Assembly: GCF_003070885.1 (NCBI RefSeq)
Contig: NZ_CP028913.1
Coordinates: forward strand, 2,294,001 to 2,358,000
Reading direction: 5' to 3'
Source: Agromyces badenianii
GTDB taxonomy: Bacteria > Actinomycetota > Actinomycetes > Actinomycetales > Microbacteriaceae
DNA: 64,000 nucleotides
Below the pieces are notes generated by a model that searched no databases, was not told the DNA's origin, and saw only the letters and a program-made list of their open reading frames with translations. The position numbers were made by a program, and so were the translations under genes. This document shows positions 4,741 through 39,616 of the stretch, one piece after another; position 1 is the stretch's first letter; every line of letters starts with the position of its first letter.

Positions 4741-5781
4741 TCAGCCCACGAGCGAGCGGAAGCCCGACATCAACGCCACCCGCTCGGCGGAGCTGCGTGC
4801 GAGCGGCGTGACCGACAGCGTCGTGACGCCGGACTCCGCGAACGCGGCGACCCGCTCGGCGACATACGATGCCGGGCCGATGAGCGAGACGGCCCGAACG
4901 AGCTCGTCGGGCACCGCGGCGATCGCCTCCTCCTTGCGTCCCTCGAGGTAGAGGTCTTGGATGAGCGCCGCCTCGGCCTCGAAGCCGTAGCTCGAGATGA
5001 GCTCGTTGTAGAAGTTCTTGCCCCGGGCGCCCATGCCGCCGACGTAGAGCGCGAGCTGCGGCTTGACGAGCGGTAGCACGAGCTCGGGCTCGTCGGTGAT
5101 CGCCAGTGCCGGGCTCGCGAAGATGTCGAGCGGCGCGAGCTCGGGCGCGCGCTTGGCGGCGCCGGCGGCGAGTGCGCCGCCCCAGACCGCAGCAGCCCGC
5201 TCGGGGTGGAAGAACATCGGCAGCCAGCCGTCGGCGATCTCGGCGGTCTGCTCGACCGACTTGAGGCCGAGCGAGGCGATCGTGATCGGGATGCGCTCGC
5301 GCACCGGGTGGTTGATGAGCTTCAGCGGCTTGCCGAGGCCCGTGCCCTCTCCCTCGGGGAGGGGGATGCGGTAGCGGCGCCCGTCGTGCACGACCGGCTC
5401 GCGGCGCCAGACCATGCGGCAGATCTCGACGAGTTCACGGGTGCGACCGAGCGGCGCGTCGTAGGGCACGCCGTGGAACCCCTCGATGACCTGCGGCCCG
5501 GATGCCCCGATGCCGAGCTCGAACCGGCCATCGGAGACGAAGTCGAGCCCGGCGGCGGTCATCGCCGTGAGCGTCGGCGTGCGCGTGTAGAGCTGCAGGA
5601 TGCCGGACGCGAGCGTGACGGTCGACGTGCGGGCGGCGAGGAAGCCGAGCTGGCTCACCGCGTCGAAGGAGTACGCCTCGGGCACGGAGATCAGGTCGAC
5701 CCCGGCGCGCTCGAGTTCGACGACCTCGTCGGCGACCTCCCGGAATCCGCCCGCGTAATTCAGGAACATGCCGACGCGCAT
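4741..5781 (-). CDS. LLM-class (luciferase-like) F420-dependent oxidoreductase
   Basis: 346 residues, a full TIM barrel of the bacterial luciferase-like family. Typical segments are MRVGMFLNYAG at the start, VDLISVPEAYSFDA, LASGILQLYTRTP, RFELGIGASGPQVIEGFHG and IPITIASLG. The wording resembles subfamilies that use the deazaflavin F420 rather than FMN, which fits an actinobacterium, but the substrate is unknown. The start is supported by GAGGAG about 7 bases before the ATG. It appears to be a single-gene unit; the next minus-strand gene upstream ends at 5883. Confidence 0.85.
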   Translation of the reverse strand: MRVGMFLNYAGGFREVADEVVELERAGVDLISVPEAYSFDAVSQLGFLAARTSTVTLASGILQLYTRTPTLTAMTAAGLDFVSDGRFELGIGASGPQVIEGFHGVPYDAPLGRTRELVEICRMVWRREPVVHDGRRYRIPLPEGEGTGLGKPLKLINHPVRERIPITIASLGLKSVEQTAEIADGWLPMFFHPERAAAVWGGALAAGAAKRAPELAPLDIFASPALAITDEPELVLPLVKPQLALYVGGMGARGKNFYNELISSYGFEAEAALIQDLYLEGRKEEAIAAVPDELVRAVSLIGPASYVAERVAAFAESGVTTLSVTPLARSSAERVALMSGFRSLVG

Positions 5782-5882: not shown

Positions 5883-6755
5883 CTACGTGGGGATGACGAC
5901 GATCGGATCGCTCGTGGGTTGCGGAGAACCGCCGGCCGGCTCGACCGTGACGCCGACCTCGACACCCGGCGCGAAGGCACCGTCGAGCACTCGCCAGGTC
6001 TCCTCCCCCTGCACGTCGAAGGTTCCGGCCGATTGCGGGCCGTCGTCGTCGATGTACCAGAGCTCGTAGGTCGACTCGGCGCCCACATCGGGCAGGCCCT
6101 CGACGATGACGCCCGAGCGGCCCTGCTCGGCCGACCAGTAGAGGGTGACGGCGCCGCCCCCGTCGACCTCGTGCGTCGATGACTGCACGTCGGAAGCCTC
6201 GGCGATCGCCGCCATCTCGCGCTGCGCACCCCAGCCGTTGGGTCCGGCCCAGCCGACGCCGATGATCGCCCCGGCGATGAGCGCGACGGATGCCGCCGCT
6301 GCCGCGATGATCGCTCCCGGACGCTGGAACCATCGGTGCTGTGCGACCCGCTCGGCACGCCCGGGTTCTCGGGCGTGCCGCGGGGCGGCGGCCTCGGGCT
6401 CGGGCGCCGCCGCAGCCGGCGGAGCGGGTGGCGCGGCCGTGGTCGCCGCGGCCTCGGGACGCTGCTGCGGCAGCGCGTCGAGCTGCGCCAGGAGCCGGGA
6501 CTTCAGGGCGGGCGGGGGCTCCACGGGGGCGACTGCCGCTGCCAGCAGCGCCGAGGTCTCGGCGAAGCCGTCGGCCTCGTCGCGAAGCGCGGGGTCTGCA
6601 GCGAGCGCTCGCTCGACAGCGGCCCGTTCCTCGGCGTCGAGCGCGTCGAGGGCGTGCGCGGCGAGGGCACCGCGAAGCGCCTCGAAGGAGTCGGGGGCCG
6701 GCTCGTCGGCGCGGCGCTCGTCGCGCTCGTCGCGCGGGTCGTTCGTCTCGCTCAT
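5883..6755 (-). CDS. rskA: RskA-like anti-sigma-K factor
   Basis: 290 residues. A cytoplasmic N-terminal domain (about 1-95, with HALDALDAEERAAVE) is the sigma-binding part of RskA proteins; an alanine/proline linker (100-140) leads to one membrane helix at about 147-168, then an extracellular RskA domain (about 175-290). In mycobacteria RskA binds SigK at the membrane and releases it after regulated proteolysis. The ATG overlaps the sigK stop in ATGA, so the pair is co-translated in a fixed ratio. Its position next to sigK, dipZ and a fasciclin lipoprotein supports the name. Confidence 0.88.
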   Translation of the reverse strand: MSETNDPRDERDERRADEPAPDSFEALRGALAAHALDALDAEERAAVERALAADPALRDEADGFAETSALLAAAVAPVEPPPALKSRLLAQLDALPQQRPEAAATTAAPPAPPAAAAPEPEAAAPRHAREPGRAERVAQHRWFQRPGAIIAAAAASVALIAGAIIGVGWAGPNGWGAQREMAAIAEASDVQSSTHEVDGGGAVTLYWSAEQGRSGVIVEGLPDVGAESTYELWYIDDDGPQSAGTFDVQGEETWRVLDGAFAPGVEVGVTVEPAGGSPQPTSDPIVVIPT

Positions 6756-7336
6756 GTCGTCACCCCCAGTGCGGTTCGCAATCTGATCATCCCGTCTCGC
6801 AATCGGGTCTTGACTGTGCCGAGCGGCACCTCGAGCCGGTCGGCGATCTCGCTCTGCGTGAGCCCGCCGTAATAGGCCAGCGAAACACACTCGCGTTGCA
6901 GTTCACTGAGACCGACGAGCGCGTCGACCACGCGCTCGTGCTCGACCCGGATCTCGACGGCCTCTGCGACGGTGTCGACGGGCACCTCGAGGTCGCGCAC
7001 CCCGACGCGGAGGTCTCGGTCGCGCGAGGCCTGCGACGCCCGGATGCGGTCGACGGAGCGGCGATGGGCGAGCGTGAACATCCACGCGAGTGCGTTGCCG
7101 CGCGCGGCGTCGAAACGCGGTGCGGACTGCCATATCTCGAGGTACACGTCTTGCGTCACCTCCTCGGCCTGCGCCGGATCGACCACGAGCCTGCGCACGA
7201 GTCCGAAGACCCGTGCCGCGGTCGCCTCGTAGAGCTCGCCGAAGGCCTCCCGGTCGCCCCTGCCGACCTGCGTGAGGAGCTCCTCCGCGGTCGGGCCGGA
7301 CTCCGGGGCAGTGAGAGCCCTGTCGCGGTCGGCCAT
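6752..7336 (-). CDS. sigK: ECF sigma factor SigK
   Basis: Group 4 sigma factor, 194 residues from the ATG at 7336. Region 2 spans about 18-88 (DREAFGELYEATAARVFGLV, then EVTQDVYLEIWQ) and region 4 about 130-185 with the helix-turn-helix LTQSEIADRLEVPLGTVKTR. An alternative start at 7414 overlaps the dipZ stop in ATGA and would add 26 residues; I prefer 7336 because family members have only about 20 residues before region 2. Genes dipZ, sigK and rskA run in one direction with overlaps and share the promoter in front of dipZ, so SigK would activate its own operon. Confidence 0.88.
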   Translation of the reverse strand: MADRDRALTAPESGPTAEELLTQVGRGDREAFGELYEATAARVFGLVRRLVVDPAQAEEVTQDVYLEIWQSAPRFDAARGNALAWMFTLAHRRSVDRIRASQASRDRDLRVGVRDLEVPVDTVAEAVEIRVEHERVVDALVGLSELQRECVSLAYYGGLTQSEIADRLEVPLGTVKTRLRDGMIRLRTALGVTT

Positions 7337-7410
7337 GCGACCCAGCATGCCAGATTGGCTGCCGGTCGTCGCCTGGGCGATGACGTCGTGGTGCGGTGCG
7401 CAGGCATGGC

Positions 7411-9123
7411 TCATCCGAAGGTGAAGGAGTAGGCGTCGACACCGGAGGCCACGGTGACGGTGATGACACCGGATGCCGAGGCATCCGTCTTCACGAGTTC
7501 GTACGACCTCGGCACGCCGCTGATCTCGATCCTGCGGCGCTCGCTGCCGTCGTCGACGACGATCGTCCCCTCGCCGCCGAGCACCATGCGCACCTCGCTC
7601 CCGGTGTAGTCGAGCCGCACTCGGGCGTCGCCCGCCGCCGGAGCGATCGACTGGGTGTCGAGCGTCCAGTCTCCGTCGAGCGCGAACGCGTCGTCGCCGA
7701 GCCTCGACGGGAACGCGAACCCGGTCGTGGCCCGGCGGTAGTCCTCGTCGCCGCCGAAGTTCACCTGCTTCGTCGTGCCGAGGAAGGTCTCCGGCGTGGT
7801 GGAACCCGCCTCGGGGGTGTCATCGGCCAGCTCGGTGGCGGGCGGCAGCGTCACGCCGGGATCGGCGTCGCCCAGGAGCTCGCGGATGAGTCCCTCGGTG
7901 GCGAGGTCGTTGCCCTCGCCGAACGAGATGTGCCGCACGACGCCCTCGGCGTCGATCAGGTAGTGCGCCGGCCAGTAGCGGTTGCGGTAGTTCGTCCACG
8001 TCGAGAGCGAGTTGTCGACGCCGACGGGGTAGTCGATGCCGAACGCGGCGATGCCGGCCTCGACGTTGCGCGGCTCCTTCTCGAAGGCGTACTCGGGCGA
8101 GTGGATGCCCACCACGGCGAGTCCGGCGTCGCGGTAGGCCTCGTCCCAGGCGACGACGTGCGGGATGGAGCGCTGGCAGTTGATGCACGAGTACGCCCAG
8201 AAGTCGATGAGCACGACCCGGCCGCGGAGGGTCGCGAGGTCGACGGCCGCCCCGCCGTCGGTGTTGAACCACTGCTGGATTCCCCTGATCGACGGCGCAC
8301 TGCCGCACGACTCGAGCTCGGCGGCCCCGTTCGTGCACTGGTCGAGCTCCGCGTTCTCCTCGTTGACGAGGCCGCCGAGATCGAGCGCCCGGGCCACCTC
8401 CTCCGAGTCGGCGAGCTCCTGCTGGAACGCGCTCGTGTAGTCGGGAACGAGTCGTTGCAGCAGCTGCGGCAGGTTGAAGACGAGCCCCACGGCGAGCCCG
8501 ATCATGACGACGCCGCCGGTGATGCGGATGGCCCGCTGGTGCGTGCGGAACGACTTCACCCGCTCGGCGACCCGCCGTCCGGCGAGGGCGAAGACGAGCA
8601 ACGGCAGGGCGGCGCCGACCGCGAACGCGACGGTGAGCACGACCGTCTCGAGCCCGATGCGGCCCGTCGACCCGGCCACCGTGATCGCCGCGAGCACCGG
8701 CCCGGCGCACGGCACGTAGACGGCGCCCAGGGCGAGGCCCAGCGGGAACCCGCCCTGCTCGGTGCCGACGTTCTTCCGCGGGATCCAGGAGAACGGCTTC
8801 TCGAGCAGCTCCTCGAAGCGCGGCACGATGAGGCCGACGCCGATGAGCACGAGAACGACGATCCCGGCCCAGCGCAGCACGTCCTGCGGAAGTCCGAGCA
8901 GGGCGAGCAGGAGCGATCCGACGAGGGTGAAGACGCTGAAGCTCAGCACCAGCCCCGCGATGACGAGGTAGGGGCGGAAGCGTCCGGCCTGCGGGGCATC
9001 CACTGCGCCTCTCGCGCTCTGCGCACCGCCGGAGAGGAAGATCACCGGCAGCACGGGCAGGATGCACGGCGAGATGCCGGTGATGAGACCTCCGAGGAGA
9101 CCGATGAGGGCGAGCGTGATCAC
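7411..9123 (-). CDS. dipZ: DipZ: CcdA-type membrane domain fused to extracytoplasmic thioredoxin domain
   Basis: 570 residues. A CcdA/DsbD-type membrane part with about six helices (1-225) carries its two redox cysteines at 20 ([11 protein letters not shown]) and 139 (YVPCAGPV). A TlpA-like thioredoxin domain (about 285-430) has the active site CINC at 313-316, and a beta-rich C-terminal domain follows. It passes electrons from the cytoplasm to secreted thiol substrates. The GTG at 9123 follows GCAGGA; the open frame upstream is promoter DNA. In mycobacteria dipZ lies in the SigK regulon beside mpt70/mpt83, matching the layout here. Confidence 0.93.
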
Positions 9124-9150: not shown

Positions 9151-9179
9151 GGTTCGCAGCGGAGGCCGGATCCGATTGG
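9151..9179 (-). promoter_or_regulatory. SigK-like promoter of dipZ-sigK-rskA
   Basis: On the minus strand CCAATC (9179-9174), a 17-base spacer and CGAACC (9156-9151), 27 bases before the dipZ GTG. The same two hexamers with the same spacing occur on the plus strand at 9221-9249. Confidence 0.7.
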
Positions 9180-9220
9180 TCGGCCGCCCCGTTCGACGTC
9201 GACCGATCCGACGGCATCGA

Positions 9221-9249
9221 CCAATCCGATCGGAGACGGGCACCGAACC
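9221..9249 (+). promoter_or_regulatory. SigK-like promoter of the fasciclin lipoprotein gene
   Basis: CCAATC (9221-9226), 17 bases, CGAACC (9244-9249), identical in both hexamers and spacing to the opposing promoter of dipZ. The gene starts 49 bases further on. Confidence 0.7.
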
Positions 9250-9298
9250 CCTCGCAACGACCCGCTCCCGTGGTCGTGTTCAACGAAGGAGTCGACCG

Positions 9299-9964
9299 AT
9301 GCGTTCCACGTCCCGCAGCACCCGCACCGCCCTCGCGGCGTTCTCGATCACGGCCGTCGCCGTGCTCGGCCTCGCCGGTTGCAGCATGGGCGGCGCCGCC
9401 GCCGAGAGCGACGAACCCGCGATGTCCGAGCAGAGCCAGCCGACGGAGCAGGCGACGGAGGCCGATCCCGCCGCCGACCTCGTCGGCCCGGGCTGCGCCG
9501 CCTATGCCGAGGCAGTGCCCGACGGACCCGGGTCCGTCGTCGGCATGTCCACCGATCCGGTGGCCGTCGCCGCCTCGAACAACCCGCTGTTGACGACCCT
9601 CGTCGCCGCGGTCTCCGGTCAGTTGAACCCCGACGTCGACCTCGTCGACACGCTGAACGGCGACGAGTTCACCGTCTTCGCGCCGGTCGACGAGGCGTTC
9701 GCCAAGATCGATGCCGCGACCATCGAGTCGCTGAAGACCGATTCGGCGACGCTGACGAAGATCCTCACCTACCACGTGGTGCCCGGCCAGCTCTCGCCCG
9801 ATGAGGTCGTCGGCACGCAGACCACGGTCGAGGGCGGCACCGTCGAGGTGACCGGCTCGGGCGACGCCCTCATGGTCAACGACGCCGCGGTCGTCTGCGG
9901 CGGCGTGCGCACCGCGAACGCGACGGTCTACCTCATCGACACCGTGCTGATGCCCGCGATGTAG
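9299..9964 (+). CDS. Fasciclin-domain lipoprotein (MPT70/MPT83-like)
   Basis: 221 residues. Lipoprotein signal peptide with lipobox LAGC (lipidated C28), a Glu/Gln/Thr-rich spacer, then one fasciclin/FAS1 domain (about 80-221) with the H1 motif [14 protein letters not shown] and the H2-type stretch [14 protein letters not shown]83 and MPT70 of M. tuberculosis have the same make-up and are the main SigK targets. Two cysteines, one shortly after the lipobox region (GPGCAAY) and one near the end (VVCGG), could form a disulfide, which would link the protein to DipZ. AAGGAG lies 7 bases before the ATG. Confidence 0.92.
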
Positions 9965-10009: not shown

Positions 10010-10096
10010 CCCCGCGCCCGGCGTCCGCGCGCGCCTTCAGCACTCTCGAAGACGGATGCCGCAGGCTTGAGATCCCCGGCCTCGAAGGGAGCCCCC

Positions 10097-11275
10097 GTGG
10101 TCTGGAGCATCCTGCTCGACGTCGCCCTCGTGCTCGTCTTCATCGGCGCGGTCGTGAACGGCTGGCGGGCCGGCCTCCTGCGAACCGCCGCCGGCCTCAT
10201 CGGGCTCGTGGCCGCGGGTGTCGCCGCCTACTTCGTCATGCCGTGGGTCGCGGGCCTCGTGCCCTCGCCCGAGTGGCGGGCACCGGCCGCGATCACCGCC
10301 GCCATCGTGCTGCTCTGCCTCGGCACCTGGCTCGGAGCGGTCATCGGCCGCGCCCTGTGGCGCGGCGCGCGCGCAGTGAAGCTCGGCGCCTTCGACCGGG
10401 TCCTCGGCGCCATCGGCAACCTGCTCGTCACCGCGTTCGTCGTCGCCCTCGTCTCCTCCGGCATCTCGGCGATGGGCGTTCCGGTGCTCTCCCCCGCCGT
10501 CGCCGGATCCCGGGTGCTGCAGGCCCTCGACGCGATCACCCCTGCACCGACCCGCAGCCTGTTGGCCGAGATCCGCACCGCCGCGCTCGGCGAGGGCATC
10601 CCGTGGCTCGCCGACGTGCTCGACGGTCCGACCGAGAGCCCGGCGCTGCCGACGTTCGCCGTCGACGACCCCGAACTCGCCCGCGCGGCGGCATCCGTCG
10701 TGCGCATCACCGGAAGCGCCTTCCAGTGCGGTTCGACGCTCTCGGGCAGCGGTTTCGTGGTCGCCGCCGACCGCATCGTCACGAACGCCCACGTCGTCGC
10801 CGGTGTCACCGAGCCGATCGTCGAGGCGCCGGGCCAACCGGCCCTGCCCGGGCGGGTCGTGGCGTACGACGAGGCGAACGACCTCGCGCTCATCGCCGTC
10901 GCCGGGCTCGCGACCCCTCCGCTGCCGCTCGCGATGGCCACGCCCGGCCAGGAGGTCGCCGTGGCGGGCTACCCCTTCGGCGGACCGTTCGAACTGCGCC
11001 CGGCGAACGTCATGTCGAGCGGCCCCCTCACGATCGAGGCGGCGGGCCGGGCCTCGACGCGCGACGTGATGACGCTCGCCGCCGACGTCGACCACGGCAA
11101 CTCGGGCGGCCCCGTGCTCACGGGCGACGGCGCGGTCGGCGGGGTCGTCTTCGCGAAGTCGGAATCGGTCGACAACGTCGGATTCGCGATTCCGACGTCG
11201 ACCCTCGCCCCGCTCGCGAGCGAAGCGCCGAGCCTCGAGGCCCCCGTCGACTCGGGCTCGTGCGTCGTCGGGTGA
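10097..11275 (+). CDS. marP: MarP-like membrane serine protease
   Basis: 392 residues. A CvpA-type domain with four membrane helices (about 4-125) is followed by a chymotrypsin-fold protease. The triad is H232 (TNAHVVAG), D262 (ANDLALIA) and S336 (HGNSGGPV). Cysteines at 211 and about 389 match the structural disulfide known in M. tuberculosis MarP (397 residues), which is required for acid and oxidative stress survival. The GTG at 10097 follows AAGGGA by 6 bases. It lies downstream of the SigK/DipZ block; DipZ-type thiol oxidation could serve this disulfide, an inference. The stop codon is the first base triplet of a tandem repeat. Confidence 0.9.
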   Translation: MVWSILLDVALVLVFIGAVVNGWRAGLLRTAAGLIGLVAAGVAAYFVMPWVAGLVPSPEWRAPAAITAAIVLLCLGTWLGAVIGRALWRGARAVKLGAFDRVLGAIGNLLVTAFVVALVSSGISAMGVPVLSPAVAGSRVLQALDAITPAPTRSLLAEIRTAALGEGIPWLADVLDGPTESPALPTFAVDDPELARAAASVVRITGSAFQCGSTLSGSGFVVAADRIVTNAHVVAGVTEPIVEAPGQPALPGRVVAYDEANDLALIAVAGLATPPLPLAMATPGQEVAVAGYPFGGPFELRPANVMSSGPLTIEAAGRASTRDVMTLAADVDHGNSGGPVLTGDGAVGGVVFAKSESVDNVGFAIPTSTLAPLASEAPSLEAPVDSGSCVVG

Positions 11276-38633: not shown

Positions 38634-39616
38634 AGCTCCTCCTCCTTCAGGGTGTTGCGGACGTTGAAGTAGGAGATGGCCATGAGCAGGACCACCATGA
38701 ACACGCCGATGGCGGCGGTCACGCCGAACTCGCCGAGGCCCTGACGGAACAGGTAGGTGCCGAGCACGTTCGTCTCGCTCGCGATGCCGCCCTGCTGCTG
38801 CAGCGCGTAGACCTGTGTGAAGATGCGCATGTTCCAGATCGTCTCCAGCACGATCACCGCGGTGATGATGTTGCGCATGTACGGCAGCACGATCAGCCTG
38901 AAGCGCTGCCAGGCGCTCGCGCCGTCGAGCGCGGAGGCCTCGAGCACCTCGTCGGGCACCTGGCCGAGACCGGCGTAGAAGGTGAATGCGGCGAACGGCA
39001 CGCTCTGCCACACGATGAGGATCGTGAGCACCATCATGAACGACCACGGGTCGATGAGCCACGAGTGGCCGCGGAAGTCGTTGGTGCCGGTCATGGTGTT
39101 GAGGGCCCAGTTGACGAGGCCGTAGTCGGTGTCGAAGATCCAGCCCCAGACGACCGTCGCCGAGAGCGGCGGCATCGCCCAGGCGAGCAGCAGGCCGATC
39201 GAGACGGTGAGGCGCCAGCCCTTCGTGAGCTTGGTCATGAGCATGGCGACGAGCATGCCGAGCGCGATGATGAGCACCGTCAGCACGACCATGAGGCCGA
39301 GGCTGCGAGCGAGCACCGCCGGGAAGTCCGACTTCGTGAAGACCTCGATGTAGTTGTCGAAGCCCACGAAGTCGGGCGCGGTGCCGAGCATCTTGTTCTT
39401 GATCTCGAGGTTCGTGAACGAGTTGATGAACATCACGATCGTCGGGTAGACGACCATGACGCCGAGCAGCACGATGCTCGGGGCGAGCAGCAGCCATGGC
39501 GCCCAGGGCAGCGGCGCCTTGCCGTGTCGGTCGCCCGAGGCGCTGCGCGATGAACGGGATGGTCGGGTCTTCGGCGTGCGCGGCGCTGCGTCAGGCTCGG
39601 TGAGGGTTGCGCTCAT
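38630..39616 (-). CDS. Sugar ABC permease (MalF type)
   Basis: 328 residues, a Ser/Arg-rich tail of about 40 residues then six membrane helices (first one LLLAPSIVLLGVMVVYPTIV). The EAA loop is LEASALDGASAWQRFRLIVLP. ATG at 39616 follows GAGGAG. Separated by 143 bases and a hairpin from the solute-binding protein gene, consistent with lower expression of the permeases. Confidence 0.9.
   Translation of the reverse strand: MSATLTEPDAAPRTPKTRPSRSSRSASGDRHGKAPLPWAPWLLLAPSIVLLGVMVVYPTIVMFINSFTNLEIKNKMLGTAPDFVGFDNYIEVFTKSDFPAVLARSLGLMVVLTVLIIALGMLVAMLMTKLTKGWRLTVSIGLLLAWAMPPLSATVVWGWIFDTDYGLVNWALNTMTGTNDFRGHSWLIDPWSFMMVLTILIVWQSVPFAAFTFYAGLGQVPDEVLEASALDGASAWQRFRLIVLPYMRNIITAVIVLETIWNMRIFTQVYALQQQGGIASETNVLGTYLFRQGLGEFGVTAAIGVFMVVLLMAISYFNVRNTLKEEEL

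Follow-up and report, generated by a model that had tools for sequence, protein, structure and literature searches.

In the 64-kb stretch of Agromyces badenianii DNA analysed here (the window), a fasciclin gene, fas, points away from three genes on the opposite strand, dipZ, sigK and rskA (Table 1). The starts of dipZ (9123) and fas (9299) enclose an intergenic region of 175 bp, and the start of rskA overlaps the stop of sigK. Among solved structures the fas product is most closely related to MPT70 (1nyo; E 1.9e-64, residues 60-220). Like MPT70/MPT83-type proteins, it combines a FAS1 domain, export predicted from an N-terminus in which we read the lipobox LAGC, and a pair of cysteines in the mature domain, both of which align with the MPT70 structure. 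In 45 of 47 fas products (rows from 41 genomes, some represented twice), the aligned part contains three cysteines. DipZ, whose best solved relative is DipZ 5cyy (E 1.2e-113), possesses the CcdA/DsbD-like membrane part, thioredoxin-like part and C-terminal ectodomain of its family. SigK matches the SigK structure 4nqw (E 1.9e-49), exceeds the curated cut-off of its family model NF007228, and is 87% identical to SigK of Agromyces cerinus, the closest named SigK among the records listed. RskA adjoins sigK and carries an RskA_C domain (PF10099, over its cut-off), its strongest hydrophobic span lying at about residue 149 by hydropathy, while the RskA_N model scored under its cut-off (21.3 vs 27 bits). 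Inspected by eye, the segment AAHALDALDAEERAAVERAL at the N-terminus of RskA looks similar to the AS19-1 consensus given in PMC7406223. These profile and structure matches bear out the gene identities proposed in a preliminary description of this DNA, namely an MPT70/83-type fasciclin lipoprotein opposite dipZ-sigK-rskA. The unit is flanked, in the window and in many related loci, by a MarP-family serine protease gene beyond fas (10067-11275) and by a gene for an F420-dependent oxidoreductase of the Rv3520c type beyond rskA (4741-5781).

Table 1. Genes and predicted control elements of the divergent unit (window coordinates)
Feature	Coordinates	Strand	Details
rskA, anti-sigma-K factor, 290 aa	5883..6755	-	PF10099 E 4.4e-23; NF052375 159.5 bits, cut-off 100
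sigK, ECF sigma factor SigK	6752..7414	-	NF007228 268.3 bits, cut-off 226
dipZ: DsbD-type membrane part, thioredoxin-like part, C-terminal domain	7411..9123	-	PF02683, PF00578, PF17991
Predicted SigK-type promoter of dipZ-sigK-rskA	9151..9179	-	-35 CCAATC 9174-9179, N17, -10 CGAACC 9151-9156
Predicted SigK-type promoter of fas	9221..9249	+	-35 CCAATC 9221-9226, N17, -10 CGAACC 9244-9249
Probable ribosome-binding site of fas, GAAGGAG	9285..9291	+	read from sequence
fas, fasciclin-domain lipoprotein, MPT70/MPT83 type	9299..9964	+	PF02469 E 1.9e-28

The preliminary description had further pointed to mirrored hexamers in the intergenic region, equal base for base and separated by the same 17 bases, and had held their agreement by chance to be improbable. 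The observation proved exact: CCAATC-N17-CGAACC has two exact matches in the window, one on each strand, where 0.01 is expected, and none of 100 shuffles contained two. The minus-strand CGAAC ends 28 nt from the GTG of dipZ and the plus-strand CGAAC 50 nt from the ATG of fas, with 41 bp between the two -35 boxes. Because the two sites share their hexamers and the length of the spacer but not its sequence, the block as a whole is neither duplicated nor palindromic; inverted repeats across the intergenic region are weak and imperfect only. A search of the 3.05-Mb, one-contig genome, run with the looser pattern CCAATC-N17-CGAAY, recovered the window pair and a single additional match (C1:1580602-1580629), which is about the chance level, the reversed control also matching once.

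We then compared 60 genomes of the genus. SigK was found in 43 of these, so that the comparison covers the window and 42 further loci; among named loci (L009-L021), several species of Agromyces had the two mirrored sites. Of the 43 loci, 38 carry the strict pattern (C/G)CAATC-N17-CGAA(C/T) at the front of the SigK operon. In the 16 loci where dipZ precedes sigK, the site lies before dipZ (28-31 nt off in the 13 of them with a strict site), and in loci without dipZ it lies before sigK. Of 41 genomes with fas, 34 have a strict site no more than 260 nt upstream of this gene, and both sites are present together in 26 loci. We controlled for spacing by searching both strands of the 43 loci (337 kb) for CCAATC-Nk-CGAA with k from 8 to 29, which gave 61 matches at k = 17, three at k = 18 and four at all other spacings combined; the reversed motif matched once over all spacings. 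Constant spacer length combined with unconstrained spacer sequence is the trace expected of a sigma-factor promoter. The GCAATC variant was not clearly above background in the same loci, with seven matches at N17 and 11 at the remaining spacings. Across the 60 whole genomes, CCAATC-N17-CGAAY matched 168 times against seven for the reversed control, with at least one match in 56 genomes.

The strict site is missing from five of the 43 operon heads and from seven of the 41 fas genes. With a pattern relaxed post hoc, near-sites appear at all five heads: GCCATC or ACCATC with N17 (two mismatches) in L211, L212 and L215, CCGATC with N17 in L199, and CCAATC with N18 in L216. The seven fas genes show CCAAAC, GCAAAC or CCCATC variants or an N18 spacing. 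A shuffle control on one 300-bp stretch, allowing at most one mismatch, matched in three of 200 shuffles and applies to L199 and L216 only. Having been sought after the fact, these near-sites lend weaker support than the strict ones.

Sites were also found away from the divergent unit. In 39 stretches around further genus sites, chosen among the matches listed, the site precedes a gene for a small membrane protein in 20, a molybdopterin oxidoreductase gene (PF00174) in six, a gene taken as molybdopterin oxidoreductase in two more, an exported-protein gene lacking a family match in three (L262, L268, L272) and a fas gene at a second place in three; five stretches (L269, L279, L282, L283, L286) have no partner among the others. 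The small membrane protein is about 135 aa long, hydrophobic by reading (for example, L255:2115-2519), matches no Pfam or NCBIfam model, and has relatives in 43 genomes of the genus. In 29 of these genomes a site stands 40-54 nt ahead of the start of its gene; in 13 of the remaining 14 the gene immediately follows fas on the same strand, where it can share the fas promoter, and G019 is the only exception. The comparison within Agromyces thus predicts a further SigK target, the small membrane protein. The molybdopterin oxidoreductase gene has a site in eight of the 13 genomes in which it was found in the fetched stretches, a sample biased towards sites.

Since the motif also precedes other genes in relatives, the SigK regulon of the genus is probably larger than one unit. 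The proposal in the preliminary description that the entire regulon is condensed in one divergent unit therefore finds no support as a general statement, three other types of gene carrying the motif, and may hold for this genome alone. Here the small membrane protein has a partial match only (48%, E 8e-7; none at 1e-10), with no site, the molybdopterin oxidoreductase has a 46% match with no site, both matches being read as distant paralogues, and the exported protein has no match in a search run without a positive control. The third strict site of the genome (L286) reads CCAATC-N17-CGAAT and lies 91 nt before an open reading frame with a VIT1 domain; we do not claim it as a SigK promoter, a single match being about the chance expectation. 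Without close orthologues of the extra targets and with only this one other strict site, the circuit may here consist of just the divergent unit. Further weak sites, or variants such as CCATC or CCAAAC, may nevertheless exist in this genome, which contains four matches at N16 or N18, three GCAATC matches, and a CCAATC match at 39103.

The genes that carry the motif largely accompany SigK. fas is present in 40 of the 43 genomes with SigK (missing from G017, G030 and G044) vs one of the 17 without it (G010), and the small membrane protein in 41 (missing from G000 and G013) vs two (G010 and G020); the assemblies of G010 and G020 comprise 840 and 810 contigs, respectively. dipZ, which always adjoins sigK, occurs in 16 of the 43 and in none of the 17. 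Co-occurrence p-values were about 1e-10 and 3e-10, but relatives share ancestry, so these values are inflated and do not come from independent tests. Genomes with SigK contain 3.28 motif sites on average vs 1.59 in those without. Of the 17 genomes without SigK, 13 still have at least one genome-wide match; some of these matches come from a recurrent 28-mer, CCAATCCAGTAATGCTAACCATCCGAAC, which is identical in G022, G027, G032, G033 and G042, occurs twice in three of them, and looks like a piece of a repeat, not a promoter.

Similar sites extend beyond the genus. Wider samples comprised 38 other loci of the family and 40 loci chosen from matches in the class. By reading, (C/G)CAATC-N17-CGAAY lies near the head of the sigK operon in 17 of the 38 family loci, and fas is likewise divergent from dipZ and sigK in L224, L233, L247, L248 and L251. 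CCAATC-Nk-CGAA gave 15 matches at N17 and seven at the remaining spacings in the family loci; eight GCAATC matches were not counted as promoters because they lie inside the sigK coding sequence. In the class loci, the same search gave 15 matches at k = 17, distributed over 14 loci, and four at the remaining spacings between 10 and 25, the strict N17 motif being absent from 26 of the 40. In six class loci (L397, L399, L401, L405, L406, L407), all Actinomycetes, the order is MopB-fas-sigK-rskA, which again ties a fasciclin gene to sigK-rskA, whereas in these loci fas is co-directional with sigK, a molybdopterin oxidoreductase gene stands in front, and no dipZ match is present. CCAATC-N17-CGAA is found before MopB in L407, between MopB and fas in L397, and before fas in L409, a class locus with no MopB match.

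A slightly different -35 box was found in family f10, presumably the Mycobacteriaceae, where CCATC-N17-CGAA lies upstream on the sigK strand in five of 11 loci scanned at spacings N16-N18 only. This agrees with the mycobacterial motif given in the preliminary description (CC-A-TC and CGAA). The window sites, with their CCAATC, 17-bp spacer and CGAA, resemble both this motif and sites at SigK loci of other families. One f10 locus, L395, contains mirrored CCATC-N17-CGAA sites about 4.4 kb upstream of sigK. As in the window, these are back to back, here flanked by an oxidoreductase-like gene, which lies on the sigK strand, and by a divergently oriented gene for an exported protein (both labels by reading), but the -35 is of the CCATC type, the divergent target is unlike fasciclin, and there is no fas match there. 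In four loci of family f25, apparently Streptomyces-like (L415, L416, L420, L424), a CCAATC-N17-CGAA site upstream of sigK faces away from it, into a gene for a protein of about 510-560 aa that we take to be DUF4331-like. Across the class, fasciclin, SigK and RskA often belong together, and several layouts exist, among them the one with two loci seen in the tubercle bacilli.

Three other readings of the mirrored motifs were weighed. The two could be half-sites of one palindromic operator for a dimeric regulator, as the halves are inverted, CGACCAATC occurs in both, and the region contains the weak inverted repeats mentioned above. The -35 to -35 gap in the 26 paired loci, however, ranges from 11 to 101 bp in 22, and the remaining four have gaps of 802, 5571, 6878 and 7905 bp. 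Each half accompanies its respective gene, single copies stand 40-54 nt before the start of another gene, and the conserved block is bipartite with N17. That each site remains with its own gene over gaps of 11 bp to 7.9 kb indicates two independent promoters, and we rejected the operator, already largely refuted by the variable gaps, as very improbable. Coincidence, that is, two matches to a GC-rich motif in a short intergenic stretch, draws on the shortness of the hexamers and on the roughly one match expected genome-wide (exemplified by the third site and the reversed-control match). With the small expectation for the window set against it, together with the fixed spacing and the conservation in dozens of genomes, which refutes it, we discarded this reading as practically negligible.

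A closer rival accepts true promoters and assigns them to another ECF sigma factor, SigK being a mere neighbour. Additional ECF sigma factors are expected in such a genome, and motif matches do occur in some SigK-less genomes. Against this, among the 17 SigK-less genomes fas is missing from 16, dipZ from all 17 and the small membrane protein from 15, the mean number of sites is lower in these genomes, and the motif accompanies SigK loci in 14 of the 40 class loci. What is reported of mycobacterial SigK promoters in excerpts of PMC9861118 also fits SigK, and we consider another factor unlikely. We favour instead two independent back-to-back SigK promoters between dipZ and fas, serving fas and dipZ-sigK-rskA, a reading that the comparison of sequences makes highly likely. 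Points that weigh against it are the operon heads and fas genes that lack a strict site, the motif matches in SigK-less genomes, the family and class loci devoid of such a site, and dipZ of M. kansasii, which did not follow mpk83 and mpk70 under light (PMC9861118). The window pair very probably represents genuine SigK-type promoters kept in related soil bacteria, and the sigK operon is probably autoregulated; comparison across genomes thus backs the preliminary description in its prediction of SigK-type promoters, of sigK autoregulation, and of fas as the divergent target.

In the circuit that we propose, the right-facing promoter would serve the fasciclin lipoprotein gene and the left-facing one dipZ-sigK-rskA. 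RskA, a membrane anti-sigma factor, would keep SigK inactive until an envelope signal, photo-oxidative stress being one candidate, relieves it, and the freed SigK-RNA polymerase would read both promoters. The surface fasciclin protein, DipZ (a thiol-disulfide carrier in the membrane), and SigK with RskA would then rise together, so that the response would amplify itself while carrying its own brake. DipZ probably acts on the cysteine pair conserved in the fasciclin protein, a role termed "potential" for mycobacteria in an excerpt of PMC9861118. The sequences themselves show the sites, their conservation and constant spacing, the way they follow the operon heads, and the joint occurrence of the genes; from these we infer the use of both sites by SigK, the identity of the signal and the DipZ-fasciclin partnership. 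Three papers offer indirect pointers to the signal: in M. kansasii, mpk83 and mpk70 go up under light, where dipZ did not follow (PMC9861118), RskA of a soil actinobacterium decreases after UV (PMC8965627), and the photo-oxidative stress genes of Rhodobacter sphaeroides include a fasciclin protein (PMC7074977). For mycobacteria, a passage of PMC7509140 described the activating signal in 2020 as still unknown, except for macrophage contact.

The arrangement resembles the SigK-RskA regulon of the M. tuberculosis complex, which shares SigK, RskA, DipZ and MPT70/83-type fasciclin proteins, places fasciclin genes and dipZ behind SigK promoters, and includes sigK autoregulation, published there and predicted here. 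According to excerpts of the relevant papers, SigK-dependent promoters precede mpt83, mpt70 and dipZ individually (PMC9861118), M. tuberculosis sigK regulates itself and Actinobacteria show conserved SigK sites (PMC7509140, citing Veyrier 2008), and another study added sigC as a SigK target (PMC4821874). In contrast to the M. tuberculosis complex, where the SigK-controlled genes lie at two loci, sigK and mpb83-dipZ-mpb70 (excerpt of PMC10540498), Agromyces badenianii has a single divergent unit whose sigK operon begins with dipZ, and its -35 is CCAATC as against CCATC in the f10 loci with a site. Among the papers searched, none treats SigK in Agromyces and none contains both SigK and CCAATC. 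That SigK regulates its own gene, that fasciclin genes and dipZ have SigK promoters, and that the sites are conserved among Actinobacteria is already published; new here are the gathering of the circuit at one locus, the additional targets predicted, and the absence of both SigK redox cysteines. The comparisons give good support to the view that the locus is a compact, one-place variant of the mycobacterial circuit.

The redox cysteines concern columns 133 and 183 of M. tuberculosis SigK, whose disulfide stabilises the SigK-RskA complex in that species, according to the part of PMC7509140 that treats it. Neither column holds a cysteine in any of the 43 genus loci, the window included, or of the 38 other family loci, while each does in 34 of the 40 class loci. 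The same excerpted source gives two redox cysteines in 94% of ECF18 and 56% of ECF19. The pair being not universal, membership in SigK stands despite its absence; with both cysteines gone, the published disulfide switch is not to be assumed for this lineage. One could speculate that in the one-locus circuit thiol control has moved from the lost switch to DipZ, which, co-transcribed with the sigma factor gene and facing the fasciclin lipoprotein, would signal redox or photo-oxidative conditions in the envelope back to RskA, an idea that we regard as improbable and offer as conjecture.

dipZ itself has a changeable history. A gene tree of 49 SigK proteins, as distinct from a species tree, requires eight changes in the presence of dipZ (7-8 in bootstrap trees), three of which are forced by well-supported branches. 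In one sister pair of SigK proteins, G012 has dipZ and G019 does not, and a closely similar promoter is kept. dipZ thus repeatedly enters or leaves the SigK operon with the promoter kept, and the genus offers natural pairs with and without it. Together with the 175-bp two-way region and a SigK free of redox cysteines, these natural versions make Agromyces a convenient genus in which to find the SigK signal and to learn what the fasciclin protein does.
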